From: Peptococcaceae bacterium
Lineage (GTDB): Bacteria; Bacillota; Peptococcia; Peptococcales; Peptococcaceae
Length of the DNA stretch: 56,903 nt
Assembly: GCA_017547685.1 (NCBI GenBank)
Contig: JAFYPD010000062.1
Coordinates: forward strand, 1-56,903
Direction: 5' to 3'
A program made the translations under genes and the position numbers. The notes beneath the pieces are model-generated. The model saw only the letters and a program-made list of their open reading frames with translations, was not told the DNA's origin and did not search any database. This document shows positions 2,083-54,739 of the stretch, piece after piece (position 1 is the first letter of the stretch; each line of letters starts with the position of its first letter).

Positions 2083-3087
2083 TCAGGAAAGTTCTGCCCG
2101 AACCAGAATCAGTTCTCCGGCAATGCTGATTGCAATTTCTTCCGGTGTGACTGCTTTGATGGCAAGGCCAATCGGGGCATGTACCCGATTAAAATCGTCA
2201 TCGGTAAATCCGTCGGCGTACAGCTTTTCCCGTGTGGTTTTCAGTTTGCTGCGGCTGCCAATCATACCGATATAGCAGGCATCTGTCCGTAATGCCTGTA
2301 CCAGTACGTCGTAGTCGTTGGCGTGACCCCGTGTCATAATAATGACATAATCGGAGGCCTGAATCTGTACTGCATCGGAAAAGTCGGTAAACGGTACCTG
2401 GATGGTTTCCTCGGCCAGCGGAAAACGGGCGGTATCGGAAAATTCCGGTTTATCGTCCACCACAACACAGCGGAAGCCCAGCGGATGTAATACCGGCACC
2501 AGGCTTTTGCTGATATGGCCGCCGCCGAAAATATAAACACGGCCTGCCGTCTGCAACGGCTCGGCATAATATTTGCCGCCTTCATAATCGACGATAGCTG
2601 TTTTATTTGTCAGCGGAGCAGGGAAGCCCATCTGAGAAAGCAGCCTGCGGTCTGCCAGCTGCGTCTGCGCGGCCCAGTGCCCGTCGCCGGCAATTTTTGT
2701 GATAAGCCAGCTGTCAGCATTTTTATTCAGTGCCTGCAGAATTTCCTGCAGTAATATACCAGTTTCAGATGCTGCACAGTCCAGATACTGAAAATATACT
2801 TCCACATCTCCGCCGCAGACCATGCCAAGATCGGCCACCTGATTTGGATGCAGCTTGAATTCCATCGTATAGGTTTTCTGCGTTTGCAATGCTTCCATGG
2901 CCATCTGCTGGGATTTATACTCCAGTGCGCCGCCGCCGATGGTGCCGGTGGTGGTTCCATCTGGAAAGACGGCCATTTTTGCTCCTGCACCTCTCGGGGT
3001 AGAACCTGACCCTGCAATGACGGTGACCAGCATACAGCTCTGCTGACGCTGAATAGTTTGCTGTAATGCTTCAAATAGAGATTTCAT
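2083..3087 (-). CDS. xdhC: XdhC/CoxI-family molybdenum cofactor maturation protein
   Basis: A 334-residue XdhC/CoxI family protein. Family members bind molybdenum cofactor and deliver or help sulfurate it for xanthine-dehydrogenase-type hydroxylases. The N-terminal XdhC_CoxI domain shows AGSGSTPRGAGAKM and GTIGGGALE. The C-terminal Rossmann domain shows VYIFGGGHISKSL and ends with the typical IGLAIKAVTPEEIAISIAGE segment. The frame extends 70 codons further upstream, but ATG at 3087 has a GAGGTG ribosome site and matches the family N-terminus, so the longer start is rejected. It lies between an unknown small gene and the molybdopterin-binding protein and most plausibly serves the divergent Mop enzyme. 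Confidence 0.9.
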   Translation of the reverse strand: MKSLFEALQQTIQRQQSCMLVTVIAGSGSTPRGAGAKMAVFPDGTTTGTIGGGALEYKSQQMAMEALQTQKTYTMEFKLHPNQVADLGMVCGGDVEVYFQYLDCAASETGILLQEILQALNKNADSWLITKIAGDGHWAAQTQLADRRLLSQMGFPAPLTNKTAIVDYEGGKYYAEPLQTAGRVYIFGGGHISKSLVPVLHPLGFRCVVVDDKPEFSDTARFPLAEETIQVPFTDFSDAVQIQASDYVIIMTRGHANDYDVLVQALRTDACYIGMIGSRSKLKTTREKLYADGFTDDDFNRVHAPIGLAIKAVTPEEIAISIAGELILVRAELS

Positions 3088-3278
3088 CCATAAAACACCT
3101 CGTTTCCATTTATGAAAAATAAAAAATTTTAGTTTAGTTTGATTTGGTTCAGTTTGGTTTTGATGCATATAGATGCAAGGAGCTTGGCGCAAACCGGGTT
3201 CCAAAAAAGAAAGTCCATTGTATAAAAAATTCCCTTGTGATATACTGCATATAGAATATGTTTCTTTTTTTCGATGGT
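3088..3278 (-). other. Intergenic spacer upstream of xdhC with T-rich heptad-like repeats
   Basis: No gene. Around 3128-3162 the plus strand carries repeated TTTAGTTT/TTTGATTT/GGTTCAGTTT units, so the mRNA strand reads as CAAA/CTAAA-type repeats lacking obvious hairpins. This is probably an unstructured leader before xdhC, or a promoter region, but no convincing -35/-10 pair was identified. Confidence 0.4.
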
Positions 3279-3662
3279 TTAACTGTGGGTATGACACCGG
3301 TCTTCATCCGGTCCGTTTCCCATTAAATCATTGATACGGCGGATGCTTTCTGCTGTATAGAAAACCATCTGCAGCGGTTTTCCGTATAAGTCCTCGGCGG
3401 TCAGTTTGATACCGTTTCCGTTTTCCTCAACATCAATCGGGAGCTGACGACGGTATAACAGGCCGGAGGTTTTATCGATAAATTCCACAGTTACTTCCTG
3501 TGCCGACAGGTGACTGACTGGCTGCGGCTGAACGGGCAGCTGGTCGAAAAACTGATTGATGCATTCCATGCACTGGACACGCAGGGATGCAGCCTGTTCC
3601 GGCGCAAGCCCTTCGGTGTGATGCTGAAGAAGATGCTGTATCTGTGATGTAATGGTTTCCAT
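3279..3662 (-). CDS. Uncharacterised 127-residue protein, first gene of molybdenum accessory set
   Basis: Function not recognised. It is a soluble, acidic 127-residue protein with a predicted helical N-terminal third containing one Cys, then a beta-rich middle (EVTVEFIDKTSGLLYRRQL) and a C-terminus ending in a short His/Cys segment (DRCHTHS). There is no signal peptide or membrane segment. An AAAGGAG ribosome site lies 9 bases before the ATG. It is first in the minus-strand set followed by xdhC and the molybdopterin-binding gene, with a 191-base gap before xdhC. Position alone suggests an accessory role for the molybdenum enzyme. Confidence 0.7.
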   Translation of the reverse strand: METITSQIQHLLQHHTEGLAPEQAASLRVQCMECINQFFDQLPVQPQPVSHLSAQEVTVEFIDKTSGLLYRRQLPIDVEENGNGIKLTAEDLYGKPLQMVFYTAESIRRINDLMGNGPDEDRCHTHS

Positions 3663-3739
3663 GAAGAAACACTCCTTTCAGAAACTGTGAATTGTTCTGT
3701 ACCCATTATAGCGAATTGGGGCGCAAATGAAAAGGACAA

Positions 3740-3768
3740 TTGCGAAAGAACATTTTTCATGCTATATA
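3740..3768 (+). promoter_or_regulatory. Probable sigma-A promoter for mop
   Basis: TTGCGA (3740-3745), a 17-base spacer and TATATA (3763-3768), followed about 60 bases later by AAAGGGGAGAGG and the mop ATG. On the opposite strand TATAAT reads at 3710-3705, facing the minus-strand accessory set, so the intergenic region probably holds divergent promoters. The minus -35 is weak. Confidence 0.5.
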
Positions 3769-3828
3769 AACGGATTCCGTTTTTTATAGAATACATTTTA
3801 TTTTAATATTTGCAAAGGGGAGAGGCAA

Positions 3829-6567
3829 ATGATTAAAAAAAGATTGACCATCAATGGTGTTAGCCGTACTGTATTCTGCGAAGCAGATGAAATGCTGGCT
3901 GACGTATTGAGAAAAAGACTGATGCTGACCGGCTGTAAAGTGGGCTGTCGTCAGGGCCAGTGCGGTGCCTGCAGCATCGTTCTGGACGGTAAAGTGGTTC
4001 GTTCCTGTATCACCAAAATGAGCCGCGTGGCTGATGATGCAGTGATCGAAACAATCGAAGGAATCGGTACTGCAGATGATCTGCATCCACTGCAGGTGGC
4101 ATGGATGGCACACGGCTGTGCACAGTGCGGTTTCTGCAGCCCTGGTTTTATCATGTCTGCAAAAGGTTTACTGGATGAAAATCCATCTCCAACCAGAGAA
4201 GAAGTTCGCGACTGGTTCCACAAACATCGCAACCTGTGCAGATGTACCGGTTACAAACCATTAGTGGATGCTGTTATGGACGCAGCAAAAGTAATGCGCG
4301 GCGAAATGAAAAAAGAAGATCTGCTGTTCAAACAGGTTGACAACAACAGTATCGTTGGCAGCAAATATGTTCGTCCGTCTGCAGTCGCAAAAGTTACCGG
4401 CACCTGGGACTTTGGTGCCGATATGATTCTGCAGATGCCGGAAGATACTTTACATCTGGCTCTGGCTCAGGCTGAAGTACCGCATGCAAACATCATCAGC
4501 ATTGATACTTCTGAAGCAGAAGCAATGCCAGGTGTTGAAAAAGTTCTGACTTACAAAGATGTAAAAGGGAACAACCGTATTTCCGGTCTGATTACTTTCC
4601 CGACCAACAAAGGGGACGGGAATGAACGTCCTATTCTGGTTGACAAAAAAATCTTCCAGATTGGTGATGCCTATGCAATCGTAGCCGCTGATACGGAAGA
4701 ACATGCAAAAGCAGCAGCAGCAAAAGTGAAAATCGAACTGGAAGTTCTGCCGGCTTACATGGACGCTATGTCGGCAGCTGCTCCGGATGCTATCGAAATT
4801 CACCCTGGCACACCAAACGTTTACTTTGAAACCAACTGTATCAAAGGGGACGAAACCGCTCCAATCATGGATAACCCGGACAACGTGGTTGTTAACATGA
4901 AAGGTTACTCCAGCCGTCAGCCTCATCTGCCGCTGGAACCAGACGTTGGGTTTGCGTACATTGACGAAGAAGGCGTGCTGAAAATTCATTCCAAATCTAT
5001 CGGGATCCATTTACATCACCTGATGATTTGTGCCGGTTTAGGTGTTGAACCGGATAAAATGCATATCGTTCAGAACCATGCCGGCGGTACATTTGGTTAC
5101 AAATTCAGCCCTACTATGGAAGGTCTGCTGGGTGTAGCTGCTCTGGCAACCGGCAAACCGGTTGCGCTGAACTACAACATGTATCAGCAGCTGATTTATA
5201 CAGGGAAACGTTCTCCTGTATTTATCGATGTAAAACTGGCAGCTGACAAAGAAGGTAACTTCCTGGCTCTGGAAGGTGAAAACTATCTGGATCATGGCCC
5301 ATACTCCGAATTCGGTGACCTGGTAACCATGCGTCTGACTCAGTTTGTAGGTGCTGGTTATGATATCCGCAATATCAGAAACAAAAACTTCACTGTATGC
5401 ACCAACCATCAGTGGGGTTCCGCATTCCGCGGTTACGGCGGGCCGCAGTCTGCACTGGCTACGGAAGTAGCGGTTGACATGATGGCTGCTGAACTGGGCA
5501 TGGATCCATGGGAACTGCGTTATAAAAATATCTACCGTGAAGAAAGAGAATCTACCACACCAACCGGCTGCAAACCAGAAGTTTATTGTCTGGAAGCAGT
5601 TATGGACAAAGCAAAACCTCTGTATGATGCTGCGAAAGAACGCGCAGCTGCAAAACAGAAAGACGGCTATAAATACGGTGTTGGTCTGGCAATCGGGGTA
5701 TACGGCTGCGGTCTGGACGGCGCTGACTCTGCAGAAGCTTATGTAGAGCTGACAAAAGACGGCGTAACCGTTTATGACTCCTGGGAAGATCATGGTCAGG
5801 GTGCTGATATGGGTACACTGGCAATGGCGCATGAAACTCTGCGTGCAGCTGGCTTCAAACCAGAAGATTTCAAACTGGTTATGAACGATATGGCTGTAAC
5901 TCCAAACTCCGGCCCTGCCGGCGGCAGCCGTTCCAACGTTGTTGTTGGCAACGCAATCCGTGTGGGCAGTGAAATGCTGCTGAATGCAATGCGTAAAGCA
6001 GACGGCACCTATCGTACCTACGATGAAATGGTTGCAGAAAACATTCCTCTGAAATACTCCGGCAAATGGGTAGCTTCCAGCTGCACGGACTGCGATCTGC
6101 AGACAGGTCAGGGTGCTCCGTTCAGCAACTACATGTACGGCGCATTTATTCCAGAAGTAGAAGTTGAACTGGCTACCGGTAAAGTGAAAATTGAAAAAAT
6201 GACAGTTGTTGGTGACTATGGTGTTATCATGAACAAACTGGTTGTAGATGGTCAGATTTACGGCGGTGTTACCCAGGCAATGGGTCTGGCACTGAGCGAA
6301 GATTTCGAAGACTACAAAAAACACAACACCCTGGCTGGCTGTGGTATTCCATATCCAAACGATGTTCCGGATGACTTTGAACTGCACTATGTGGAAACTC
6401 CGCGTCCAGAAGGCCCTTACGGCGCAGCTGGCTGTGGGGAAGGTCCACTGGTAGGTCCTGCACCGGCAATCCTGAATGCAATCTACAATGCAACAGGTGC
6501 TCGCATTACAACCATTCCAGCAAGACCGGAAGTTGTAAAAGCAGCTCTGGATGAATTAGAAGCGTAA
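3829..6567 (+). CDS. mop: Molybdenum-dependent aldehyde oxidoreductase (Mop/AOR, xanthine oxidase family)
   Basis: A 912-residue single-chain molybdenum hydroxylase that oxidises aldehydes to carboxylic acids at a molybdopterin cytosine dinucleotide centre. It lines up end to end with Desulfovibrio gigas Mop (907 residues). Two [2Fe-2S] sites match position for position: Cys40, 45, 48 and 60 (plant-ferredoxin type) and Cys100, 103, 137 and 139. The molybdopterin domain fills residues about 190-905, with QGADMG, GGSRS and a GCGEGPL segment whose Glu (about residue 871) corresponds to the catalytic Glu869. There is no FAD domain, so electrons must pass to a separate partner, plausibly the next gene. 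It has its own promoter and is followed by a terminator. Confidence 0.95.
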   Translation: MIKKRLTINGVSRTVFCEADEMLADVLRKRLMLTGCKVGCRQGQCGACSIVLDGKVVRSCITKMSRVADDAVIETIEGIGTADDLHPLQVAWMAHGCAQCGFCSPGFIMSAKGLLDENPSPTREEVRDWFHKHRNLCRCTGYKPLVDAVMDAAKVMRGEMKKEDLLFKQVDNNSIVGSKYVRPSAVAKVTGTWDFGADMILQMPEDTLHLALAQAEVPHANIISIDTSEAEAMPGVEKVLTYKDVKGNNRISGLITFPTNKGDGNERPILVDKKIFQIGDAYAIVAADTEEHAKAAAAKVKIELEVLPAYMDAMSAAAPDAIEIHPGTPNVYFETNCIKGDETAPIMDNPDNVVVNMKGYSSRQPHLPLEPDVGFAYIDEEGVLKIHSKSIGIHLHHLMICAGLGVEPDKMHIVQNHAGGTFGYKFSPTMEGLLGVAALATGKPVALNYNMYQQLIYTGKRSPVFIDVKLAADKEGNFLALEGENYLDHGPYSEFGDLVTMRLTQFVGAGYDIRNIRNKNFTVCTNHQWGSAFRGYGGPQSALATEVAVDMMAAELGMDPWELRYKNIYREERESTTPTGCKPEVYCLEAVMDKAKPLYDAAKERAAAKQKDGYKYGVGLAIGVYGCGLDGADSAEAYVELTKDGVTVYDSWEDHGQGADMGTLAMAHETLRAAGFKPEDFKLVMNDMAVTPNSGPAGGSRSNVVVGNAIRVGSEMLLNAMRKADGTYRTYDEMVAENIPLKYSGKWVASSCTDCDLQTGQGAPFSNYMYGAFIPEVEVELATGKVKIEKMTVVGDYGVIMNKLVVDGQIYGGVTQAMGLALSEDFEDYKKHNTLAGCGIPYPNDVPDDFELHYVETPRPEGPYGAAGCGEGPLVGPAPAILNAIYNATGARITTIPARPEVVKAALDELEA

Positions 6568-6640
6568 GCTTTCTGATGATTTCCATTGACAGACGATTCA
6601 TTGGAATATATACTTTGTGTGCGTTTGTCTGAATCATAAT

Positions 6641-6676
6641 AGAGGGTGTTTCCTTTTGGGGGACACCCTCTTTTTA
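6641..6676 (+). terminator. Hairpin terminator/attenuator between mop and the accessory operon
   Basis: AGAGGGTGT (6641-6649) pairs with ACACCCTCT (6663-6671), followed by TTTTT. It lies between the mop stop and the next ribosome site (AGGAGGAGG, 6691-6699). With no evident promoter between, it probably lets only part of transcription continue, giving more Mop than accessory proteins. Confidence 0.8.
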
Positions 6677-6702
6677 CAAATGATTGTAGAAGGAGGAGGC
6701 TT

Positions 6703-8988
6703 ATGTTTGAACTGACTCAGGAATCACTTCATGAGTGGGAGGCGCTTTGTACACAGGATCAGCCTCCGTACTGTACTGCGCAATGTCCATTGCATGTGGA
6801 TGCCAAAGGGATCTGTGCTGCGGTGGAACAGGGCAATTTTAACAAAGGTCGGGAAATCCTCGAAAAATATATGGTGCTGCCACGAATTTTATCGGCAGTT
6901 TGTGAAGCCCCGTGCCGAAATAAATGTCGGCGGGGAGAAAAAGGAGATGCTGTTCAGCTTCAGCTTCTGGAGCAGGCCTGCATGACTTACGGGAAAAAGA
7001 AATCTACAGGGAGCCGGTTGGCATTTCTGCGTAAGAAAGAAGAGAAAATTGCTGTGGTCGGTGCCGGTATGGCCGGATTATGCACTGCTATGGAGCTTGG
7101 AAGCCGAGGATATCAGGTAACACTGTTTGAAAAAGCAAATGGGCCTGGCGGCCGGCTGTTACTTTTGGATGAACAGGTGCTGCCAAAAGAGGAACTGGAA
7201 AAAGATTTCAAAAAACTAGAGCAGACGGGAATTAAAATAGAATGTAACAGCCATGTGGATTCGGAAAAACTGAAAGCGTTATGCCGGCAGTACAATGCCG
7301 TGTATCTGTCGCAGGCGGTGCTGGATGAATTAAAACTGGACATTCAGATTGACCGTACCACATTGCTGACCAATATAGAGAAAGTGTTTGCCGGAAATAC
7401 CAGTCTGGATGAAACCAGCTTTATCGGTGATGCAAGTGATGGCAAGAAAGCGGCTATCTCGATTGAGCGCTATCTGCAGAATGCTTCGCTGACATTGAAA
7501 CGTGAACTGGAAGGCTCTTATGCGTCAAAACTTTTCACCCGGCTGGACCGTATTGAGCCGAATAAAGAAATTGTACCGGAAACGATACATTATACGGAGG
7601 CAGAGGCGAAACAGGAAGCTGCCCGATGCATTCAGTGCCGCTGCACCGAATGTCTGGATGCCTGTGCCTTTTTAAGAAACTATAAACGATATCCGAAACT
7701 GTACGCCCGCGAGGTATTTAATAATTTTACCATCGTTATGGGGTTCCACGGGGCAAATGGCATGATTAATTCCTGCAGTTTGTGCGGTCAGTGTAAAGTA
7801 CTCTGTCCCAATGGATTTGATATGGGTGAAATTTGCAAAGTAGCCCGGGAAGACATGGTAACCAGAGGAAAGATGCCGCCGTCCACCCATGATTTTGCGC
7901 TGATGGACATGGCGTTCAGCAATGGCGATGATTATTTTATGGTGCAGCATCAGCCAGGAAAACAGGAAAGCCGGTATGCGCTGTTTCCGGGCTTCCAGAT
8001 GGGGGCATCGCTGCCGGATACGGTGAAAGCGGTGTATCAGGATTTAAGCGAACGTCTGGATGGCGGAGTTGGCCTGATTCTGGGCTGCTGCGGCGCTATT
8101 GCGGACTGGGCCGGGAATCAGCCGCAATTAAAGCAGGAGCTGGAGAAAATCCGCACAGCCTGGAATCAGTTAGGACAGCCGAAGATGATTACGTTGTGTC
8201 CGAGCTGTTATATGACGTTCCAGCAGGCGGGAATTCCGGTGGTGGGCATCACAGAAATTCTGCTGCAGATTGGTGTACCGCCGCAAATGATGACACAGAG
8301 TGGTATGCTGGCAGTGCATGATTCCTGCATCACCCGGTTTGACCGTACGCTGCAGGATGCGGTGCGGGAGCTGGCCCGTCAGGCAGGTTATACCATCGAA
8401 GAACTGCCGTATTCCCGCGAGAAAACTCATTGCTGCGGGTATGGCGGATTGACCAGTCTGGTAAACAGAGAGGTGGACGCAGAAACGGTAAAACAGTGTA
8501 TCAGCCAGAGTGACAAGGATTATCTGACATACTGTGTCAACTGCCGCGACCAGTTTATGAAACAGGGGAAAACCACGCATCATATTCTGGAACTGTTATA
8601 TGGCGTGCAGGAGCGGCCAGTGGCTGATTTGAGTGAACGCCGCCTGAACCGGCAGCGATTAAAATATGAGATGCGAACGGAAATCTGGGGGGAAACAATC
8701 ATGATGCCTGAGCCAAAAATCAAGTACGAAATTGCCGATGATGTACGGTGGCAGATGCATGACCGTATGATTCTGGAAACCGATATTATTCAAGTGCTGG
8801 AACATGCGGATGCCACCCGGGAAATGATTTTCAACAAGACAAAACAGGTGTATTTCAGCAGTTTGCGCATCGGTAATGTGACCTTCTGGGTAGAATTCCG
8901 GAAACAGGATAATGTGTATCAGGTGATACAGGCCTACAGTCACCGTATGAGTTTTGAGGAGTGTGATGTCAATGGCGCAGTATTATGA
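6703..8988 (+). CDS. Multidomain FAD / dicluster Fe-S / CCG-domain oxidoreductase
   Basis: A 761-residue redox protein. Domains in order: an N-terminal Cys-rich Fer4_20-type domain as in glutamate synthase small subunit (about 15-100, CTAQCPLHVD and CEAPCRNKCRRGE); a FAD/NAD Rossmann segment (VVGAGMAGL then GGRL); two [4Fe-4S] ferredoxin motifs near 310-385; a heterodisulfide-reductase-type CCG region (GCCGAIADWAG, LCPSCYMTF, HDSCITRF, CCGYGGLTS); and a 90-residue extra C-terminal domain. It matches the family called pyridine nucleotide-disulfide oxidoreductase/dicluster-binding protein. Probable role: moving electrons from Mop to pyridine nucleotide, ferredoxin or a disulfide. ATG 6703 has an excellent AGGAGGAGG; the longer in-frame start lacks one. 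Confidence 0.85.
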   Translation: MFELTQESLHEWEALCTQDQPPYCTAQCPLHVDAKGICAAVEQGNFNKGREILEKYMVLPRILSAVCEAPCRNKCRRGEKGDAVQLQLLEQACMTYGKKKSTGSRLAFLRKKEEKIAVVGAGMAGLCTAMELGSRGYQVTLFEKANGPGGRLLLLDEQVLPKEELEKDFKKLEQTGIKIECNSHVDSEKLKALCRQYNAVYLSQAVLDELKLDIQIDRTTLLTNIEKVFAGNTSLDETSFIGDASDGKKAAISIERYLQNASLTLKRELEGSYASKLFTRLDRIEPNKEIVPETIHYTEAEAKQEAARCIQCRCTECLDACAFLRNYKRYPKLYAREVFNNFTIVMGFHGANGMINSCSLCGQCKVLCPNGFDMGEICKVAREDMVTRGKMPPSTHDFALMDMAFSNGDDYFMVQHQPGKQESRYALFPGFQMGASLPDTVKAVYQDLSERLDGGVGLILGCCGAIADWAGNQPQLKQELEKIRTAWNQLGQPKMITLCPSCYMTFQQAGIPVVGITEILLQIGVPPQMMTQSGMLAVHDSCITRFDRTLQDAVRELARQAGYTIEELPYSREKTHCCGYGGLTSLVNREVDAETVKQCISQSDKDYLTYCVNCRDQFMKQGKTTHHILELLYGVQERPVADLSERRLNRQRLKYEMRTEIWGETIMMPEPKIKYEIADDVRWQMHDRMILETDIIQVLEHADATREMIFNKTKQVYFSSLRIGNVTFWVEFRKQDNVYQVIQAYSHRMSFEECDVNGAVL

Positions 8989-9187
8989 GTCGATTGACCC
9001 GAACGGGGAATTAATCTGTGAGAAATGTGGCGTGCCTTTTGAAAAAATGGAAGTAACACTGGCTTATATGGGAAACAGTTTCCCGGTAGAATTACCGCGG
9101 TGCCCGATTTGCAAGATGGTGTATGTGCCGGAAGACCTGGCTATGGGAAAAATTCTCCGCGTAGAGAAATCGCTGGAGGATAAATAA
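8972..9187 (+). CDS. Small CxxC redox protein (DVU_1557-like)
   Basis: A 71-residue protein with two paired-cysteine motifs, CEKCGVPF and CPICKMVYVPEDL, typical of a zinc ribbon or rubredoxin-like metal site. It resembles the small redox protein that follows the FAD/dicluster protein in Desulfovibrio (DVU_1557 family). It may be an electron carrier or zinc-bound partner. The gene starts inside the upstream gene (17-base overlap) after an AGGAG at 8957-8961; ATG 8966 (spacing 4) and ATG 8972 (spacing 10) are both possible. Its stop overlaps the next start by one base, indicating translational coupling. Confidence 0.75.
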   Translation: MAQYYESIDPNGELICEKCGVPFEKMEVTLAYMGNSFPVELPRCPICKMVYVPEDLAMGKILRVEKSLEDK

Positions 9188-9810
9188 TGGCCGGGTGTCT
9201 GCATCCCGGCGGCCTGGATTTTACAGCACGTCTTGTAAAAGAATCTGAGCTGCAGCCGGGTGCCGCGGTGCTGGACGCCGGATGCGGTTCCGGCAGTACA
9301 GTGGAATGGTTCAGGGAAAACGGTTACGATGTCTGCGGGATTGACCGCAATCCGGAGAAGACCAGTGCATGGATGCAGCAGGGGGACTTACGGCAGATGC
9401 CTTATGCAGCGGAATGCTTTCATGCTGTCATCAGCGAATGTACCGCTTTTATCTGCGGCGGCACCAGAACGATGCTGCTGGAATGCAATCGCGTATTAAA
9501 GCAGGATGGCTGGCTGCTGCTGGCCGATGTATATTTTACCGAAGAACAGCCATTGCCGTGTTTCTTCGATGGCCGGCCTGTTACGATGGAACAGTGGCAG
9601 CAGGTGCTGCAGGATTGTGGATTTACGATTGAGAAGATAGAAGATGTGTCAGCGGCCTGGAAGCCCTTTGTTATCGAACAGCTCTGGGCCGGACGAACAC
9701 TGGAGGATTTGTGGGGCGGCTGTTTTGCCGACGGGCAGACCGGCCCGTCCCGGTACAAGCCCGGATATTTTCTGCTCTGGGCGAGGAAAGGAGCGAACAG
9801 CAATGAGTGA
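9187..9810 (+). CDS. Class I SAM-dependent methyltransferase (DVU_1556/TrsM-like)
   Basis: A 207-residue methyltransferase with motif I VLDAGCGSGSTVEW, an acidic residue after beta-2 (VCGIDRNP), DLRQMPY before motif II, and a methyltransferase-11 type core. The substrate is unknown. The gene corresponds in position to the DVU_1556 family methyltransferase, named TrsM in some annotations (from memory). The first base of its ATG is the last base of the previous stop, and its end overlaps the next gene by 8 bases. Grouping with a radical SAM enzyme and redox proteins suggests modification of a small molecule or cofactor rather than nucleic acid, which is inference. Confidence 0.8.
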   Translation: MAGCLHPGGLDFTARLVKESELQPGAAVLDAGCGSGSTVEWFRENGYDVCGIDRNPEKTSAWMQQGDLRQMPYAAECFHAVISECTAFICGGTRTMLLECNRVLKQDGWLLLADVYFTEEQPLPCFFDGRPVTMEQWQQVLQDCGFTIEKIEDVSAAWKPFVIEQLWAGRTLEDLWGGCFADGQTGPSRYKPGYFLLWARKGANSNE

Positions 9811-10243
9811 ACAGGATTTATTCATGCGTATGCTGGATCTGACTTCGCAGGGATATGCCTGCAGTCAGATTCTGCTGATGCTGGGGATGGAACTGAATGG
9901 TGAGGAAAACAGCGCGGTGGTGCGCACCATGGCTGGACTCAATGAAGGGATGTATGGCAGTGGACGTCTGTGCGGCTGTTTAACCGGCGGCAGCTGTCTT
10001 CTGGGTTATTTTTCCGGAAAAGGGCTGGAGGAAGACGAACTGGAGCATCCGGCATTCCGCAAAATGGTGGCTGAGTTTTCCGCCTGGTTTGAAGAAACCT
10101 GGGGCGGGCAGTACGGCGGCATCAACTGTGATGATATTTTAGAGGATAACCGCGCCAATCAGATGACCCGCTGCCCGGAAATTGTACAGTCCAGTTTTGA
10201 AAAATGTCTGGAACTGCTGGAGAAAAACGGATGCCTGGCGTAA
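9803..10243 (+). CDS. C-GCAxxG-C-C family protein (DVU_1555-like)
   Basis: A 146-residue helical protein of the C_GCAxxG_C_C family, whose conserved cysteines suggest a bound redox metal or disulfide centre. Visible Cys positions are in YACSQI, GRLCGCLTGGSC (the GCxxG-C core), GINCDD and TRCPEIV. No enzymatic role is established for the family. ATG 9803 has GGAAAGGAG upstream and overlaps the methyltransferase end by 8 bases. In-frame codons further upstream lie inside the methyltransferase gene and are rejected. The conserved position in the operon suggests a redox or scaffold partner. Confidence 0.82.
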   Translation: MSEQDLFMRMLDLTSQGYACSQILLMLGMELNGEENSAVVRTMAGLNEGMYGSGRLCGCLTGGSCLLGYFSGKGLEEDELEHPAFRKMVAEFSAWFEETWGGQYGGINCDDILEDNRANQMTRCPEIVQSSFEKCLELLEKNGCLA

Positions 10244-11334
10244 AAGCGGCAGGGCTGATTTCGGTTGCAGGTCTGTCTTCACGGATGGGGGCTTTTAAAC
10301 CGCTGCTGGATTTAAGCGGAAAACCTTTAATCTGCCGCACCATAGAAAGCCTGTTACGAGGTGGTGTTCAGCAGGTGACTGTGGTAACCGGACGTAATAG
10401 AGATGCTATTGCCAGAGTGGTGCACAAGTACCCGCAGGTAAGGCTGGTACACAATGCGGATTATGCAGCGACAGCCATGTTTGATTCCATTAAGCTGGGT
10501 CTGCAGCAGATGCATGATATGGATGCAGTTGTGTTTTTACCTGCTGATGTGCCGGCTGTGCGTCCGGAAACTGTGCGTGTGTTGTTGCAGCAATGGGAGA
10601 AACAGAAACCTGATGTGCTGCTGCCTGTCTATCAGGGGCAGCCATGGCATCCGCCAGTGATTTCTGCAAGGCTGTTGCCGCAGTTATTGCAGTATAACGG
10701 CACAGGCGGATTAAAAGGTGCGCTAAAAGTGCTAGGCACATCCAGAGAGCATATGCTTGTTCCAGATAAGGGATGTACCATGGACGCCGATTATGTGGAA
10801 GACTATCAGAGGTTGTGTCAGTACTGGCCGCTGCGGGATGTGCCGGATACGGAAGTGTGTCAGATTCTGTATCAGCTGGCGGGGACACCGGAACCGGTGC
10901 AGCAGCATTGCGAGGCTGTGGCGCAAAAAGCGATGGAACTTGGTGAACAGCTGCAGCAGAACGGGAATGCACTGGAGCTGCATCTGCTGGAAAGCGCTGC
11001 CCGTCTGCACGATATCTGCCGGACGGAACCTAGCCATGCACAGGCGGGGGCGGAATTTTTGCGGCAATATGGTTTTTATCGGATTGCTGATCTGGTAGCG
11101 GTTCATATGGACTGGCCGGAAGAACGAATCATTCAGCTGGATGAAGCAGCCGTTCTTTATCTGGCAGATAAGCTGGTATCCGGCAATCAGAATATCCCGC
11201 TGGATCAGCGCTTTGTTGAAAAAATGAAGAAGTTTGCGGATAATCCGGAGATTGTTACAGCAATCAAGCGGCGATATGAAATTGCAGCAGAAATCTTGTG
11301 TCAAATGGAACAAGAGGTGACAAAAAAGGAATGA
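10231..11334 (+). CDS. MobA/MocA-like NTP transferase fused to an HD domain (DVU_1551-like)
   Basis: A 367-residue fusion. Residues about 5-190 form a nucleotidyltransferase of the MobA/MocA type (SVAGLSSRMGAFKPLL and FLPADVPAVRPE, the metal-binding Asp). About 200-365 form an HD-type hydrolase (ARLHDICR and a later VAVHMDW). MocA adds CMP to molybdopterin to make the cytosine dinucleotide used by Mop-type enzymes, so this is the best local candidate for that step. The HD half may hydrolyse a nucleotide intermediate. ATG 10231, with GGAG 8 bases upstream and a 13-base overlap with the previous gene, is preferred over 10204. Confidence 0.82.
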   Translation: MPGVKAAGLISVAGLSSRMGAFKPLLDLSGKPLICRTIESLLRGGVQQVTVVTGRNRDAIARVVHKYPQVRLVHNADYAATAMFDSIKLGLQQMHDMDAVVFLPADVPAVRPETVRVLLQQWEKQKPDVLLPVYQGQPWHPPVISARLLPQLLQYNGTGGLKGALKVLGTSREHMLVPDKGCTMDADYVEDYQRLCQYWPLRDVPDTEVCQILYQLAGTPEPVQQHCEAVAQKAMELGEQLQQNGNALELHLLESAARLHDICRTEPSHAQAGAEFLRQYGFYRIADLVAVHMDWPEERIIQLDEAAVLYLADKLVSGNQNIPLDQRFVEKMKKFADNPEIVTAIKRRYEIAAEILCQMEQEVTKKE

Positions 11335-12755
11335 AAAAAATAATCAGTACAACAGAAAGTATCTGCCCGGTTTGTCTGCGGCGAATTGCTGCGCAGCGCG
11401 TGGCAGAGACTGACGGAATCTATATGGAGAAAACCTGCCCGGAACACGGCGATTTTCGTGTACTGCTGTGGCGCGGCAGTGAACAAACCTATCGAAACTG
11501 GGAGCGACAGAAACAGCAGCCGGCAGAACATTACTGCCATACCCATGTAGAGAAAGGCTGCCCGTATGACTGCGGTTTCTGTGAAGATCATCTGCAGCAG
11601 ATTTGCTGTGTACTGCTGGAAGTGACCCAGCGGTGCAATCTGCACTGTCCGGTTTGCTTTGCCTCGGCTGGCGGTCCATCTGTGGATCCGACACTGGAGG
11701 CGATTGGCAGATGGTATGATGAACTGATGAAAGCAGGCGGACCGTTCAATATTCAGCTGTCCGGCGGTGAACCGACTATGCGGAATGACCTCGCCGACAT
11801 TATTCGATTAGGGAAGGAAAAGGGTTTTACTTATTTTCAGCTGAATACCAATGGATTGCGCATTGCAGAAGAGTATGATTATCTACAGGAACTGGTACAG
11901 GCAGGATTGCGTAATGTATTTCTGCAGTTTGACGGCTTGACGGAACATCCCTATGAGGTGCTGCGCGGAAAGCCTTTGCTGGAGAAAAAAAAGGCAGCCA
12001 TCGAGAATTGCCGCAAGGCAAAAGTGGGGTTAACTCTGGTGCCTACCGTTGCTCCTGGTGTCAATGATAATCAGGTGGGAGATATTCTGAATTTTGCGTT
12101 GGAACATATGCCGGTGGTTCGCGGCGTACATTTTCAGCCGGTCAGCTATTTTGGACGCTGTGATTTAGAGCAGAATGAACAGCGTATCACGATTCCGGAT
12201 ATGCTGCATTATATGGAAACACAGACAGGCGGTATCATGAAGGCATCTGATTTCTTAGGCGGCGGTGCGGAAAACTCCTATTGTTCTTTCCACGGTAATT
12301 TTATGCGGATGCCGGACGGCACCATCAAATCAATAAAAAGCGATACCACGGGCTGCTGCTGCACGTCATCCAAACAGTCGCGGGAGTTTGTGGCAAAACG
12401 GTGGTCTGCGGCGCCCGTTCTGACAACCGCTCAGGAAAGCAGCTGCTGTTGCGGAACAGCGGAATCTGCGGTGCGGGAAAGCAGTTGCTGCAATGGAACA
12501 GCATGTGCAGAAAGTCAGGAAAACACTTGCTGCAGCAGTACGCCGCAGCCTTCGCTGTTTGATGTATTCCTGGAGCGGATGGAGAACTATACGCTGGCTG
12601 TTTCCGGCATGCTGTTTCAGGATGCATGGAATTTTGATTTAGAGCGAGTGAAATCCTGCTATCTCTGCGAATTCAGTCCGCAGATGAAAATTGTACCGTT
12701 CTGCGCCTATAATTTATCCAGTATCAGCGGAGAAACACTGTACAGGGGGAAATAA
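11331..12755 (+). CDS. Radical SAM protein with Cys-rich insert (TrsS-like)
   Basis: A 474-residue radical SAM protein. The cluster motif CNLHCPVC follows LLEVTQR near residue 100, and a SAM-binding SGGEPT follows. The N-terminus has ESICPVCLRRI and CPEHGDF, a combination I associate with the MJ0619/tetraether-synthase-like branch. From about residue 338 to 405 there is a remarkable Cys-rich region (TGCCCTSS, ESSCCCGTAES, ESSCCNGTACAES, NTCCSSTP), and a last cluster sits at CYLCEF. Relatives of this position are annotated radical SAM (seleno)protein TrsS. No in-frame TGA occurs here, so this copy is cysteine-only. The start overlaps the previous stop. The substrate is unknown. Confidence 0.82.
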   Translation: MKKIISTTESICPVCLRRIAAQRVAETDGIYMEKTCPEHGDFRVLLWRGSEQTYRNWERQKQQPAEHYCHTHVEKGCPYDCGFCEDHLQQICCVLLEVTQRCNLHCPVCFASAGGPSVDPTLEAIGRWYDELMKAGGPFNIQLSGGEPTMRNDLADIIRLGKEKGFTYFQLNTNGLRIAEEYDYLQELVQAGLRNVFLQFDGLTEHPYEVLRGKPLLEKKKAAIENCRKAKVGLTLVPTVAPGVNDNQVGDILNFALEHMPVVRGVHFQPVSYFGRCDLEQNEQRITIPDMLHYMETQTGGIMKASDFLGGGAENSYCSFHGNFMRMPDGTIKSIKSDTTGCCCTSSKQSREFVAKRWSAAPVLTTAQESSCCCGTAESAVRESSCCNGTACAESQENTCCSSTPQPSLFDVFLERMENYTLAVSGMLFQDAWNFDLERVKSCYLCEFSPQMKIVPFCAYNLSSISGETLYRGK

Positions 12756-12757
12756 TC

Positions 12758-14041
12758 ATGTCCAGACTGGACGGCTACATGGCGAAACAATTTCATATTG
12801 CACTGGAACAGCTGAGCCGCAGCGTCATAGAGGCAAAACAGCTGGGTGCCGTGAATCAGCTGCTGCAGTGGTGCAAAAGCCATAGCGGGTATTATGATGA
12901 TTATCCGGAACAGCTGCAGTCACTGGATGAAATCACGATGCTGCCTTTTCTGACTGCGCAGACGCTGGCAGAGCATTGTCAGGAGCTGGTCTGTGTGTCT
13001 CAGAGCGAAATCAGTCGTGTGGTGACGATGCAGACATCAGGCACCAGCGGCTTGCAGAAACGACTGTATTTTTCTGAAGCAGACCAGCAGCTGACCGTTG
13101 ATTTTTTTGCCTGCGGTCTTTCTGAACTGAACGAGCCTGGTGACCGCTGTATGATTCTGATGCCGGGTCATCGGCCAGGCGGCATGAGTTATCTGATTGG
13201 GCAGGCGCTGGAACAGATTGGGGCAATACCGGTTCCGTGCGGATATGATAAAACCTTTGCAGAAATGGCAGAGCTGCTGCAACAGCAGCAGGTGACCACT
13301 ATGGTGGGCAGTCCGGTGCAAATTCTGTCGCTGGCCCGCTATCTGCGGCATTATCAGCTGCCGCACCGGATAAAAGCGGTACTGGTCAGCAGTGATTATC
13401 TGCCGGAAACGGTGCGCCATGCTATTGAAGAAACCCTGCACTGTGATGTGTATGACCATTACGGTATCACCGAGGCAGGGCTTGGCTTTTCCATTGAATG
13501 TGAGTGCCATCAGGGATTGCATATGCGGGAGAATGATTTGCTGGTGGAGATTATTGAGCCGCAGACCTTGCAGCCGGTTCCCGACGGCCAGTGGGGCGAG
13601 ATGGTATTTACCACGCTGACCCGCCGTGCCATGCCGCTGATTCGGTATCGTACCGGCGATAAAGCGCGGCTGCTGGCGGAGCCTTGTGCCTGTGGTTCCA
13701 TCGTGAAACGGATGGATAAAATTCCGGGCAGAATACAGCAGCTGGAGGATTGTTACTGTATGCCGGTGCTGGATGAACTGTTGTTCCAGCTACCGCAGGT
13801 GATGGACTATCAGGCAAGATACAGCAGTGTAAAAAAACAGCTGTATCTGCATCTGCTGCTGACAGAGAATGTTATGCATCTGGAACAGAAAGTTGATACA
13901 TTGCTGCGCTCGGTATTGCAGAAAGGCGATACTTTGCAGTTAACGATGGATGTATTGTGTGAAATCAACCGGTATGCGGTGAAAAGCCTTTATGCTGCAA
14001 AGAGAAAACTGATACAGGAGGATGGCCATGAAACAGAATGA
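12758..14041 (+). CDS. AMP-dependent CoA ligase-like adenylating enzyme (DVU_1553-like)
   Basis: A 427-residue member of the acyl-adenylate superfamily, closest in layout to phenylacetate-CoA ligase. It shows the phosphate loop QTSGTSGLQKR (about residues 90-100), VYDHYGITEAGLG in the adenylate-binding region, the YRTGDKARLL hinge Asp segment, and a Cys cluster CACGS afterwards. It would activate a carboxylate as an acyl-AMP and possibly pass it to CoA. The substrate is unknown; it could be the acid produced by Mop, or a cofactor precursor. It starts 3 bases after the radical SAM stop. Confidence 0.82.
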   Translation: MSRLDGYMAKQFHIALEQLSRSVIEAKQLGAVNQLLQWCKSHSGYYDDYPEQLQSLDEITMLPFLTAQTLAEHCQELVCVSQSEISRVVTMQTSGTSGLQKRLYFSEADQQLTVDFFACGLSELNEPGDRCMILMPGHRPGGMSYLIGQALEQIGAIPVPCGYDKTFAEMAELLQQQQVTTMVGSPVQILSLARYLRHYQLPHRIKAVLVSSDYLPETVRHAIEETLHCDVYDHYGITEAGLGFSIECECHQGLHMRENDLLVEIIEPQTLQPVPDGQWGEMVFTTLTRRAMPLIRYRTGDKARLLAEPCACGSIVKRMDKIPGRIQQLEDCYCMPVLDELLFQLPQVMDYQARYSSVKKQLYLHLLLTENVMHLEQKVDTLLRSVLQKGDTLQLTMDVLCEINRYAVKSLYAAKRKLIQEDGHETE

Positions 14042-49213: not shown

Positions 49214-49243
49214 CGCTGCATCAAAAATGGTGCAGCGTTTTTA
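49214..49243 (+). terminator. Terminator after the AgrC-like kinase
   Basis: CGCTGCATCA (49214-49223) pairs with TGGTGCAGCG (49228-49237) around AAAA, with a T run to 49242. Confidence 0.85.
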
Positions 49244-49358: not shown

Positions 49359-49392
49359 GTGTAAATAAGATTGACAACAAGGAGGAGAGTAA

Positions 49393-52300
49393 ATGTTAAA
49401 AACAAACACAAAGAAAAAAATCTGCATGATACTGATTGTCAGCATGTTGTTTAGCATTCTGCCTGTCAGTGCCTTTGCGGAGGAAAACTCTACTGTAACA
49501 AGTGGTTCCTGTGGTGAAAATACGACCTGGCAATTTGATAGTGCGACAGGAACTCTTACAATTACCGGAAATGGTGACATGGATGATTACCTGTTAGAGG
49601 AAAGACCATGGGAAGATCATATTCAGAACATTGAAAAAATAGTGATTGAAGATGGTGTTACTTCTGTAGGTAGCAGTGCCTTTGACAATGCTACTGAATT
49701 AAAAAATGTTTCTTTAGCATCAACAGTTAAAAGTATTAACCATGGTGCATTTTCCGGTTGTCGGCAATTAAAAGAAATTACCATTCCTGAAAGTGTAACA
49801 ACAATCGAATCAGGGGCATTTGCAATAACAGGATTGACTAGTATTACTATTCCGGCGATTACAGAATTAAAGTATCGTGAAGATTCTGGTGCGGGCTATA
49901 CATTTTATGCATGTCATGATTTAAAGAATATTTATGTAGATGAAGAAAGCATTTTGTATTCTTCGAGAGACGGTGTTCTTTACAGTAAGGATGGAACTGA
50001 ACTGCTTTGTTATCCAGCCGGAAAAACAGCATCGGAATTTGTAATTCCAAATCATGTAACGCATATAGCAAATGAATCAATAGATTTGTGTGATTCTTTA
50101 GAAAGATTGGTATTTGGAGAAAATGTAGTTTATTGCGGTGGATTTGGCACTAATTATAATTTACAGAAAATTCAGCTGAATGAAGGTTTGCAGACCATTG
50201 CAGCAATGAGCTGTTTATCAGACAATCTGACAGAACCATTATATATTCCAGAAAGTGTTACATTTATTGGTGGTCAATTTGCAGCGTATGATAATGCAGA
50301 TGTATATTTTTATGGAAATGCCCCAGCGGTAGATGAACGTTTCAAAGATAGTGGAAATGAACTGACAGAAGATGTAATGCTATATTACATTGAAGGAAAA
50401 GCTGGTTGGTCTACTCCTAAATGGAATGGTTACAACACAAAAACATGGGAGGGTAATTCAGAAGAAGGCGAGACTGTTAAAATCACAAAGTTAAGTCCGG
50501 CCAATGGAGCTGAAAATGTTGGCTATAACAGTACTAATCCACCGCTTTTCAAGATTACATTTAATACAGAACCATCACGTATCAACGGGGAAGCAGTACA
50601 GCTGGATGAAACTAAAGAGCCATTCCGGATTTATCGGGCCAAAGATGACAAATTAATTTATGAGGAATCGACCGATACCGATAATACAGCTGGTTATAGC
50701 AGTAATATTACCTCTGCAACTGAGAGTAAAACAGTAACCATTAAGCCAACCAATCGTCATATCTTACTGGAGAAAGATACCGAGTATTATATTACCATTG
50801 GTGAAGGCTACATGAAGTTTGCGGATGGAAGTGTCAGCCCTGCTATCGAAAAGGGGGACTGGAGTTTTAGAACGAAAAATCCGGATGTCTCGATTGTCAG
50901 TGATATTACCATTAAAACCGGGGATGATGATACCAAGAATGCAGTCGTAACCGTAGAATGGAAAGACATTTGGTTTAAAGAGCCGGCGACGACCTATCGA
51001 CATGAGCTTGCATGTACAGCTATGGCATTAAGCGGCGCTGCTTATGTAGAGAATTCTAATAAACAGCCAGCACCTGATGCTATTCAGGATGCGTTAACTG
51101 GTTTTGGCTTCGAGGAAATTACCTCGTACAATTATGATAAAATTCGGTCAGAAGAACGAAATGACATGGTATCGTATACATTTGCAACGAAAAAAGATGT
51201 TTTTTTAGAGAATGAAGTATACAATTTGGTTGCAGTAATAGTAAAAGGTACTAGTGGCGATGAGGAATGGTATAGTAATTTCAATATGGGACTCGAAAAT
51301 CGTCATGAGGGTTTTAATACGGCTGAACTAGAATTATGGGCAGATTTAAGTATATATTTAAATGAACATAATCTGACAAGAGAAAATACAAAATTTATTG
51401 TAACGGGTCACAGCCGTGGTGCTGCGGTAGCTAATCTGATTGCACGAGATTTGAGTTATCCGGATATTGGAAAAGCAAGAGCCTATGCAGATAATGTGTA
51501 TGCATACACATTTGCAACTCCGGCAGTAACGACAGATGAAAATGCTACAGCGGAAAAATATTCCAATATTTTTAATGTTGTAAGTGGTGAAGATTTTGTA
51601 ACACGTGTACCATTGAAAATGTGGAATTATGGTCGATATGGAGTAGATTTGCTGCTTCCAAGCAGAAGCTACTATGGAAGAGACTATAATAAAGTATATA
51701 CTGCAATGACTTCTCAATATAATAGTTTGATTAATAAAGCATATGAACCGTATAATGGTACTCAGCAAGTAGATAATCTTGTAATGAATGTAATTAGAGT
51801 GGCACCAACCATAACAGCGTTTTATAAAAATATAAATCAAAATCTTGTAACGCCATCTATTTACTTTAATAGTCTGGCAGAGTATCTTGTGACAAAAAAT
51901 CTAGATACATTTGTTGCATGTACTATTAGTAATGAATATATACCAATCACTGCATTTTTTATAGCGAATCATTTAGTTGATAAACGTGTATTTGCGGCTC
52001 ACAGCATGGCAACTTATTACAGCTGGCTGGATAGCTGCAGTGCCGAAGAACTCTTTGGTGATGCTAATGCAAGCACAGTCTACTGGTTTAAGCGTGCAAC
52101 GATTGCCTGCCCGGTTGATGTGTATGTATATGATGAAGGCGGTAATCTGGTAGCAAGTGTCGTGGATGAGACAGTGGGCGCAAATACACTGGCAGTAAGT
52201 GTAGAAGACGGTATAAAAACTATCGATATGCCGAATGATCAGGAATATACGATTAAAATTGTAGCAACTGATAAAGGTACTGTAACATATACCATTGAGG

Positions 52301-53148
52301 AAAATAAGGCTACGGCTGATGGCAATGATGTTCTTCGCACGATTCGGTTTAATAATATTGCAATTGAATCGGGGGACGAACTGAACGGTGAAGTGAATGA
52401 CGATACGTATACAGCTTCTAAAAATTATGCATTAACGAAAAACGATGGTACGGATGAGGAAACCGTTATTTATTCGGATTATGACAGCAAAACTCAATCT
52501 AATCCTTCTTCTCCATCCTCCGGTTCTGGTGGTGGCTTCAGTGGGGTATACAATTATCCGATAAAAGTGGATAAAGTAGACGGAGCGGAAATTGTTCTAA
52601 GCGATGAATATGCGTCCAAAGGTGAGGATGTAAGTATTCTCGTAAAACCTGATACAGGGAAAGAAGTCGGTGAAGTTACAGTTACAGATGCACGGGGTAA
52701 TGTTCTTAGCGTAACAAAAACAGCGGATAACCAGTACAGCTTTACAATGCCTTCTGGCAAAGTTAATGTACAGGTAAACGTAAAAGATGCAGAATATGAT
52801 TTGCGCATTGTGATGCAGATTCAGAATAAAAATATTCTGGCGGGTGACAAAACAATCGTGAATGATGTGGCACCAGTTATAGTGGATGACCGTACTCTGG
52901 TTCCAATTCGTGTTGTAACAGAACTTTTAGGAGGTTCTGCGCATTGGGATGCGGCCACTCGTACAGTAACTTTAATAATTGATGGTAAAGTATTATCCAT
53001 GACTATTGATAAACCGATTCCTGGCTTTGGAACCTCGGCTGTCATTATGAATAGTCGTACTTATGTGCCAGTGCGTTATGTGATGGAAGCATTAGGTGCC
53101 GATGTGGAGTGGATTTCAACCAGTCAGCAGGTTGTGATTGAAAAATGA
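49393..53148 (+). CDS. Secreted LRR / lipase-like / copper amine oxidase-like-domain protein
   Basis: A 1251-residue secreted protein. Signal peptide 1-29 (ends LPVSAFAEE). Then BspA-type leucine-rich repeats (about 75-310, such as ITIPESVTTIESGAF), an Ig-like domain (about 370-490), and a class 3 lipase-like hydrolase with Ser674 in GHSRG, Asp734 in SGEDFVTRVP and His870 in AHSMATYY, a plausible triad. After a Ser/Gly linker and a beta domain, a copper amine oxidase-like N-domain repeat (about 1160-1251; LVPIRVVTELLGG, YVPVRYVMEALGA) probably binds cell wall. Likely surface lipase or esterase/adhesin. Upstream repeats may allow control by the AgrA-like regulator. Confidence 0.88.
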   Translation: MLKTNTKKKICMILIVSMLFSILPVSAFAEENSTVTSGSCGENTTWQFDSATGTLTITGNGDMDDYLLEERPWEDHIQNIEKIVIEDGVTSVGSSAFDNATELKNVSLASTVKSINHGAFSGCRQLKEITIPESVTTIESGAFAITGLTSITIPAITELKYREDSGAGYTFYACHDLKNIYVDEESILYSSRDGVLYSKDGTELLCYPAGKTASEFVIPNHVTHIANESIDLCDSLERLVFGENVVYCGGFGTNYNLQKIQLNEGLQTIAAMSCLSDNLTEPLYIPESVTFIGGQFAAYDNADVYFYGNAPAVDERFKDSGNELTEDVMLYYIEGKAGWSTPKWNGYNTKTWEGNSEEGETVKITKLSPANGAENVGYNSTNPPLFKITFNTEPSRINGEAVQLDETKEPFRIYRAKDDKLIYEESTDTDNTAGYSSNITSATESKTVTIKPTNRHILLEKDTEYYITIGEGYMKFADGSVSPAIEKGDWSFRTKNPDVSIVSDITIKTGDDDTKNAVVTVEWKDIWFKEPATTYRHELACTAMALSGAAYVENSNKQPAPDAIQDALTGFGFEEITSYNYDKIRSEERNDMVSYTFATKKDVFLENEVYNLVAVIVKGTSGDEEWYSNFNMGLENRHEGFNTAELELWADLSIYLNEHNLTRENTKFIVTGHSRGAAVANLIARDLSYPDIGKARAYADNVYAYTFATPAVTTDENATAEKYSNIFNVVSGEDFVTRVPLKMWNYGRYGVDLLLPSRSYYGRDYNKVYTAMTSQYNSLINKAYEPYNGTQQVDNLVMNVIRVAPTITAFYKNINQNLVTPSIYFNSLAEYLVTKNLDTFVACTISNEYIPITAFFIANHLVDKRVFAAHSMATYYSWLDSCSAEELFGDANASTVYWFKRATIACPVDVYVYDEGGNLVASVVDETVGANTLAVSVEDGIKTIDMPNDQEYTIKIVATDKGTVTYTIEENKATADGNDVLRTIRFNNIAIESGDELNGEVNDDTYTASKNYALTKNDGTDEETVIYSDYDSKTQSNPSSPSSGSGGGFSGVYNYPIKVDKVDGAEIVLSDEYASKGEDVSILVKPDTGKEVGEVTVTDARGNVLSVTKTADNQYSFTMPSGKVNVQVNVKDAEYDLRIVMQIQNKNILAGDKTIVNDVAPVIVDDRTLVPIRVVTELLGGSAHWDAATRTVTLIIDGKVLSMTIDKPIPGFGTSAVIMNSRTYVPVRYVMEALGADVEWISTSQQVVIEK

Positions 53149-53271: not shown

Positions 53272-53327
53272 AAACCTCCCTCAGTAAAGTGGATTTTAAC
53301 AAAAATCTATTTTACTGAGGGAGGTTT
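53272..53327 (+). terminator. Large bidirectional terminator
   Basis: A perfect 17-base inverted repeat, 53272-53288 with 53311-53327, extended inward by TGGATTTT/AAAATCTA. It lies between two convergent genes. Confidence 0.85.
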
Positions 53328-53348: not shown

Positions 53349-54272
53349 TTACCTTGTTATATTTATTCTCTTATGATCAGATAAATATGCTTCTGTATCA
53401 TTTAACAAGCTATATTCAAATATTTTGTATTGTGTTGCTAGTGACGGAGAAACTGGCTGACCAGTGGCATCTTTGTAATGAGTGATGATTAATGTACTGC
53501 CTTGATGTTGCATATGAACAGATGGTTCTGGCTGCGGCTCATGATTATAGATATGCTGATTAAAATGCGATTTTAATTGCAGGATGCTGGCAGCATTGTA
53601 GTTAAAGATGTCTGTATAGAGAGTAACTTTTGTATAATCATGTGTGGCGCTATATTTAATATTGTCCAGTAAAGACAGTTTGTGATTCAGTGATGGAAAA
53701 TAGTTTGTGTTGTACCACATTTGCCAGCATGCTGGGAACCAGATGTCTTCATTGAAAAAGTGCTTTTTCAATATATTTTCAGTAAGCGACTCAGCGTTAT
53801 ATTTTGTTTGCTGTATGTGCCGATAAAATTTAGGAGAAATATCAGAATAGTTCATCAGAAATTCGCCGTAATGGCAGATATAAGCTGTATAGGAAGCATG
53901 CATCTGAAAGCTTTTTTCAATATTAGAAAGGATAAAGTTTTCGTTTTTGATATAGGTTTCATATGGAACAAGAAAACTGATGATACAGTGTTTATTCAGG
54001 CGAACAATGGAACAGTAGTCTTCCCCGGATAATTCGACAAAGAAATTATTGGCTGAAAGTTTTTTTACTGCAGGCATAAAATTGCTGAAGGAATATTTTT
54101 TTAATGTTGTGAATAAATACTGTTCTTTTCGATGTTTCCATAAATCTCTCTGCGGATAATTACGGATAAAATATTTGTTTACATCCAGCAATTGAAGCAT
54201 GGAGGGAAACCAGTCGGTATAAATGAGTTTTGGTGCAACGCATAATTTGACTACAATTTTATTTTCACACAT
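53349..54272 (-). CDS. Uncharacterised protein divergent from an XRE regulator
   Basis: A 307-residue soluble protein, rich in Tyr, Phe, Asn and His, without signal peptide or membrane helices. The pattern is mixed alpha/beta. No family motif was recognised. ATG 54272 has AAAGGAG upstream; the extension to 54362 has no site. The gene is AT-rich compared with the core region and divergent from a small XRE regulator, next to a large YD-repeat protein. An immunity or defence role is possible from position only. Confidence 0.75.
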   Translation of the reverse strand: MCENKIVVKLCVAPKLIYTDWFPSMLQLLDVNKYFIRNYPQRDLWKHRKEQYLFTTLKKYSFSNFMPAVKKLSANNFFVELSGEDYCSIVRLNKHCIISFLVPYETYIKNENFILSNIEKSFQMHASYTAYICHYGEFLMNYSDISPKFYRHIQQTKYNAESLTENILKKHFFNEDIWFPACWQMWYNTNYFPSLNHKLSLLDNIKYSATHDYTKVTLYTDIFNYNAASILQLKSHFNQHIYNHEPQPEPSVHMQHQGSTLIITHYKDATGQPVSPSLATQYKIFEYSLLNDTEAYLSDHKRINITR

Positions 54273-54421
54273 GCTGCGCTCCTTTAAATCTGTAATTACA
54301 AAACTATAATACATTTTATTAGAATGAATTTCAATACAAAAATACATTCTGACACAACTCATGTGAATTTTGAAAATGGGTTATCATAGTATCAAATGAT
54401 GTTTGTGCAGAGGTGTTTTTC

Positions 54422-54739
54422 TTGGATGTTGCAGAGTTTATTAGAAAGAGGATAACCGAGCTACGCTTGAAAAAGAATGTATCTGAAAGACAGATGTCTG
54501 TTGATTTAGGAATGGGTGAAAACTATATTCAGGGCATCACTTCTGGAAATTCATTACCGTCACTTAAGGTGTTAGAAAAAATAGCTGGCTATTTCGAGTT
54601 GACGCTTAGTGAGTTCTTTTACGAAAATGAAAAGACGGCATTGGTTCAAACAGCTGCACAAATGATGACAGAGTTAAATGAAGAGGACATTATATTTGTA
54701 ATTTCCCTGATAAAACGGCTGAATAATGAGAAAGGGTAA
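54422..54739 (+). CDS. XRE-family helix-turn-helix regulator
   Basis: A 105-residue regulator with an HTH_3 domain (about 5-60: RKRITELRLKKNVSERQMSVDLGMG...SLPSLKVLEKIAGYF) and a short helical tail. TTG 54422 follows AGAGG by 8 bases; GTG 54413 overlaps that site. It may control the divergent unknown gene or the secreted YD-repeat protein. Confidence 0.88.
   Translation: MDVAEFIRKRITELRLKKNVSERQMSVDLGMGENYIQGITSGNSLPSLKVLEKIAGYFELTLSEFFYENEKTALVQTAAQMMTELNEEDIIFVISLIKRLNNEKG

Follow-up and report, generated by a model that had tools for sequence, protein, structure and literature searches.

The window, a stretch of 56,903 nucleotides of a contig from a Peptococcaceae bacterium, contains an open reading frame (ORF; positions 49393–53148, + strand) that starts with ATG and encodes a protein of 1251 amino acids. 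A ribosome-binding site, AGGAGG (49380–49385, +), can be read from the sequence 7 nucleotides 5' of the start codon. The protein is composed, in order, of a signal peptide, BspA-type LRRs, a weakly matched Big_5 domain, a Lipase_3 domain, a beta-rich domain, and a C-terminal module that contains Cu_amine_oxidN1 stretches. Its N-terminus reads as a Sec signal peptide (residues 1–29; 49393–49479, +), in which the translation shows KKK, then a hydrophobic stretch, and then AFA ahead of E30/EE, where cleavage presumably occurs.

The lipase gene appears to be a lone transcription unit with hairpins on both sides. A terminator-like hairpin (49214–49237, +) separates it from the upstream kinase gene, and a long hairpin with perfect 14-base ends (53275–53324, +; folding z −4.5) is located 3' of it, is present in a single copy in the window, and probably marks the end of the transcript. 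Alternatively, the latter hairpin could be a small dispersed element. Terminator-like sites are no more numerous in the window than in its shuffles, and each single hairpin is therefore weak evidence. Control of the lipase gene by the LytTR regulator and GHKL kinase encoded upstream was considered and dropped. Because the upstream hairpin intervenes, and because another secreted-type protein, not the LytTR/GHKL pair, is encoded directly upstream of the relative in locus L022, we claim no such link. Downstream of the gene are a 337-amino-acid ORF (53349–54362, −) that matches nothing in Pfam, NCBIfam, or PADLOC and, divergent from it, a gene for a small HTH protein (54413–54739, +) with weak RstR/CapH-like matches. 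Elsewhere in the window, positions 3829–14041 look like a selenium-related trs cluster, with above-cut-off matches to a molybdopterin aldehyde oxidoreductase (NF045668), a dicluster-binding oxidoreductase (NF045663), the radical SAM (seleno)protein TrsS (NF045646), and a DVU_1553 family CoA ligase (NF045666). No RNA families were found in the window, and a search for plasmid carriage of the locus returned no match.

The BspA-type LRR region spans residues 79–294 approximately (49627–50274, +). The protein matches LRR_5 (PF13306) well above the Pfam cut-off (E-value 2.8e-27; 95.6 bits versus a cut-off of 27.7), with one hit at 49627–49932 and another, itself below the cut-off, at 50032–50274, and phmmer relates the region to the solved BspA-like LRR proteins 4gt6 and 4h09. 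BspA-type repeats beside a lipase-like hydrolase, as proposed in an earlier sequence-only reading of this DNA, are borne out. Residues 362–494 (50476–50874, +) resemble the Ig-like Big_5 domain (PF13205) with an E-value of 2.3e-4, just below the cut-off; in the L022 relative, the same domain is above the cut-off (1.6e-6). Flg_new_2, a weak B-repeat-like domain, also remains below the Pfam cut-off.

The Lipase_3 (PF01764) core comprises residues 617–742 (51241–51618, +) and is recognized by Pfam with an E-value of 8.8e-14 and 52 bits (cut-off of 22); it is the only Lipase_3 match found in this genome. Searching solved structures with a profile of the core retrieves class 3 lipases, including Malassezia LIP1 (1.7e-8) and Aspergillus niger feruloyl esterase A (1e-4). 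Specifically, Ser674 (51412–51414, +), the nucleophile candidate in GHSRG, aligns with the serine of GHSLG in LIP1, and Asp734 (51592–51594, +), the acid candidate in GEDFVTRVP, aligns with the aspartate of NGRDW. The catalytic histidine candidate, His870 (52000–52002, +; H-x4-Y in AAHSMATYY), is covered neither by the Pfam model nor by the sequence match to solved lipases, and its support therefore comes from conservation and fold. The translation places all three residues where the sequence-only reading had put its triad.

Relatives were drawn from genome, viral-contig, and phage collections. Ser674, Asp734, and His870 are invariant across the eight sequences of alignment A2, whose other members are 26–59 per cent identical to the query and include a same-genus protein at 59 per cent. 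The same holds for the G-T and EEW motif that precedes the serine, for the H-x-x-F positions, and for a tyrosine five residues past the histidine. The alignment is thin, at nine sequences once L066, which also keeps the triad, is added. With L066, L028, and three human-faecal sequences, the triad is retained in the query and 12 other relatives, most of which are <35 per cent identical. Two short, distant viral-contig sequences (L065 and L067) are not alignable at the histidine, L004 ends short of it, and L029 has no histidine at the aligned column. The absence of the triad in homologs, named beforehand as grounds for refutation, was not seen: apart from L029, every aligned relative that reaches far enough keeps it. 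A test profile built from six distant relatives, with the query and its near relative left out, scores the query at 213.5 bits, whereas 1000 shuffles of the query score at most 10.5 bits; the match of the core is therefore not due to chance.

Lipase-core relatives were also found on contigs labelled viral or 'Bacteriophage sp.' (L062–L064 and L077–L079; labels unverified), and the contigs of L062–L067, labelled viral, could be either phage or bacterial DNA. Since the core relatives in L062–L064 resemble bacterial surface proteins, and those in L077–L079 start with a twin-arginine-type signal (MKRRDFCK or MDRRSFCK), some of these 'viral' records may be bacterial DNA.

The catalytic domain was modelled with AlphaFold2 as residues 519–907 (50947–52113, +) from nine sequences (pTM 0.78, mean pLDDT 69; model positions 325–349, just before His870, have pLDDT <50). 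In this medium-confidence model, the domain is predicted to have a class 3 lipase fold. Foldseek places class 3 lipases at the top, those of Gibberella and Rhizomucor (E-value 5e-7), and the best VIA-align matches are a plant phospholipase A1 (Z 19.1, 259 residues, rmsd 3.9), feruloyl esterase A (Z 18.6, 203 residues, rmsd 3.1), and Rhizomucor lipase (Z 18.3, 222 residues, rmsd 3.5), with aligned ranges that extend beyond His352 of the model (His870 of the protein). EDS1 and PAD4 are also among the fold matches (Z 12–15). Together, the predicted fold and the conservation of the triad in relatives give good support to the lipase-like hydrolase of the sequence-only reading. Between Asp734 and His870, residues 741–869 (51613–51999, +) form a helical insert, mostly of medium to low pLDDT, whose length differs among relatives and which is possibly a cap or lid. 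An earlier model (residues 485–1020, five sequences) was too poor (pTM 0.46) and was not used for claims about the catalytic fold; strands in that low-confidence model point to the putative beta-rich domain (residues 905–1030; 52105–52482, +), which is 61 per cent identical in L022.

The C-terminal module (residues 1052–1251; 52546–53145, +) is common to other proteins of the genus. It includes two Cu_amine_oxidN1 (PF07833) stretches found by Pfam (52849–53145, +; E-value 1.8e-23, 83 bits versus a cut-off of 24.2). The last 200 residues are 63–67 per cent identical to the tails of L030, L031, and L034, unrelated proteins of the genus. A calcineurin-like phosphoesterase is among those that bear the module there, as is a beta-helix/Big_2 protein, and over the last 124 residues of the query, the identity to a choice-of-anchor I protein is 56 per cent. 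With 35 PF07833 matches in this genome and 27 in the sister genome, these tail comparisons show that the module is common to many proteins of this genome, including secreted-type ones. Pfam matches with E-values up to 0.1 include no amine oxidase catalytic domain in the ORF, and the label 'copper amine oxidase' is a misnomer, an artefact of the family name. The repeats described earlier as copper-amine-oxidase-like are present, under a misleading family name. Pfam also gives no SLH match in the ORF; SLH proteins occur elsewhere in the genome.

The same-genus relative (L022/L003) comes from the goat-caecum MAG Peptococcaceae RGIG1748, which indirectly supports the gut setting that had been suggested, and is 58–60 per cent identical to the query across the Big_5, catalytic, and beta domains. 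DUF5648 has seven matches in the sister genome and none in this genome. Three consecutive secreted-type proteins of the sister species (L022 positions 234–2003, 2105–6160, and 6445–9465) all have DUF5648 repeats at the end. LRR_5 and Lipase_3 are also paired in L022, L062, and L063, and VWA is paired with Lipase_3 in L004, L037, and L064. In another species of the genus (G002, locus L037), a 1113-codon open frame combines VWA with a different Lipase_3/Mbeg1-like domain. Across these relatives, the conserved core is combined with varying recognition parts (LRR or VWA) and varying C-terminal modules. We tentatively hypothesize, with considerable doubt, that in a clade of gut Clostridia the 'GHSRGAA' lipase core serves as an exchangeable extracellular catalytic head, with LRR or VWA modules swapped on one side and stalk or DUF5648 tails swapped between sister species, to yield adhesins that would cut esters on the very surface to which they attach.

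Taken with the predicted fold, the sequence makes it likely that the protein is a secreted, probably surface-associated serine ester hydrolase with a class 3 lipase fold, and catalysis by the product of this ORF is probable. In the mechanism that we propose, Ser674 would attack an acyl ester after activation by His870 and Asp734, and the helical insert would cap the site and set the choice of substrate. By binding a protein or surface partner, the LRRs may deliver the enzyme to the substrate, and the C-terminal module may hold the enzyme at or near the cell, via wall association or self-association. The most likely substrates would be glycerolipids (phospholipid, galactolipid, or acylglycerol) in a herbivore-type gut, a guess from the enzyme family and the setting.

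The fold could instead serve to cut a non-lipid ester, such as a feruloyl or acetyl ester of the plant cell wall, making the protein an accessory enzyme akin to feruloyl esterases in an anaerobe of the herbivore gut. The goat-caecum origin of the sister genome and the placement of feruloyl esterase A among the best fold and profile matches are in line with this role. However, lipases and phospholipases score equally within error, so that the tied top matches leave the fold unable to separate lipase, phospholipase, and feruloyl esterase, and the Pfam matches of the ORF include no carbohydrate-binding domain; we regard such an activity as unlikely. Even less probable, in our view, is that the domain is a pseudo-enzyme that, like plant EDS1 and PAD4, serves as a binding scaffold, in a protein that acts purely as an adhesin. 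The fold matches to these two proteins, the missing histidine of L029, and the early end of L004 would fit a scaffold, but a triad kept at the divergence seen among the 12 relatives is unlikely without selection for catalysis.

Compatible with the preferred ester hydrolase reading, and quite possible although not what we would expect, is that the C-terminal module mediates dimerization or assembly and is not a wall anchor, leaving the enzyme released or multimeric. The sole solved protein matched by the tail sequence is a Paenibacillus CuZnSOD (PDB 8imd; E-value 0.014), whose PF07833-type domain dimerizes and has a fold unlike the amine oxidase domain of E. coli (PMC10432803). On the other hand, this match covers 34 residues only, PF07833 is carried by several surface proteins of Desulfotomaculum reducens, another anaerobe, and wall hydrolase domains accompany it in some of these (PMC4137172), and the abundance of the family in this genome also speaks against a purely dimerizing role. 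Wall binding and dimerization are not mutually exclusive; given the D. reducens proteins and the dimerizing Paenibacillus domain, the tail may bind the wall, self-associate, or both.

The enzyme family itself is ordinary, as Pfam, the PDB profile search, and the predicted fold all give class 3 lipase, and our understanding of the protein families is unchanged by this ORF. Less ordinary is the modular make-up of the secreted protein around that core, in which a lipolytic fold is joined to a protein-binding repeat in a gut-type anaerobe; the sister species offer a clear example of one core with different tail modules. If active, the protein is a candidate for surface ester or lipid breakdown in the herbivore gut. 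A literature search for an LRR-lipase surface protein found no paper, which says little given its partial coverage.

Among known systems, the BspA-type LRR surface proteins (PF13306; 4gt6 and 4h09) share the LRR consensus with the query, and the 'DGVLYSKDGTELLCYPAGK' stretch of the query has a similar form in 4h09, but the query also carries an enzyme domain. Like the 'stalk domain'/Cu_amine_oxidN1 proteins of Bacillota (PF07833), it has a tail with two stretches above the family cut-off; in contrast to them, its passenger is a lipase-fold enzyme, and no oxidase domain accompanies the tail. The L022/L003 relative has the same succession of LRR, Big_5, Lipase_3, and beta domains but differs in a longer, less similar LRR region with more repeats and in a tail of DUF5648 repeats where the query has the stalk module. 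With the class 3 lipases (PF01764: Rhizomucor miehei lipase, Malassezia LIP1/SMG1, Aspergillus feruloyl esterase A, and the phospholipase A1 DSEL), the query shares the predicted fold, the GxSxG serine, an aspartate before a proline, a histidine near the domain end, and the G-T and W motif ahead of the serine. Unlike these enzymes, it is bacterial and holds the domain within a modular protein of 1251 amino acids. The query reads GHSRGAA where Malassezia LIP1 reads GHSLGAA, and its Asp734 and His870 are 136 residues apart, a spacing that is roughly half as long in the fungal class 3 lipases.
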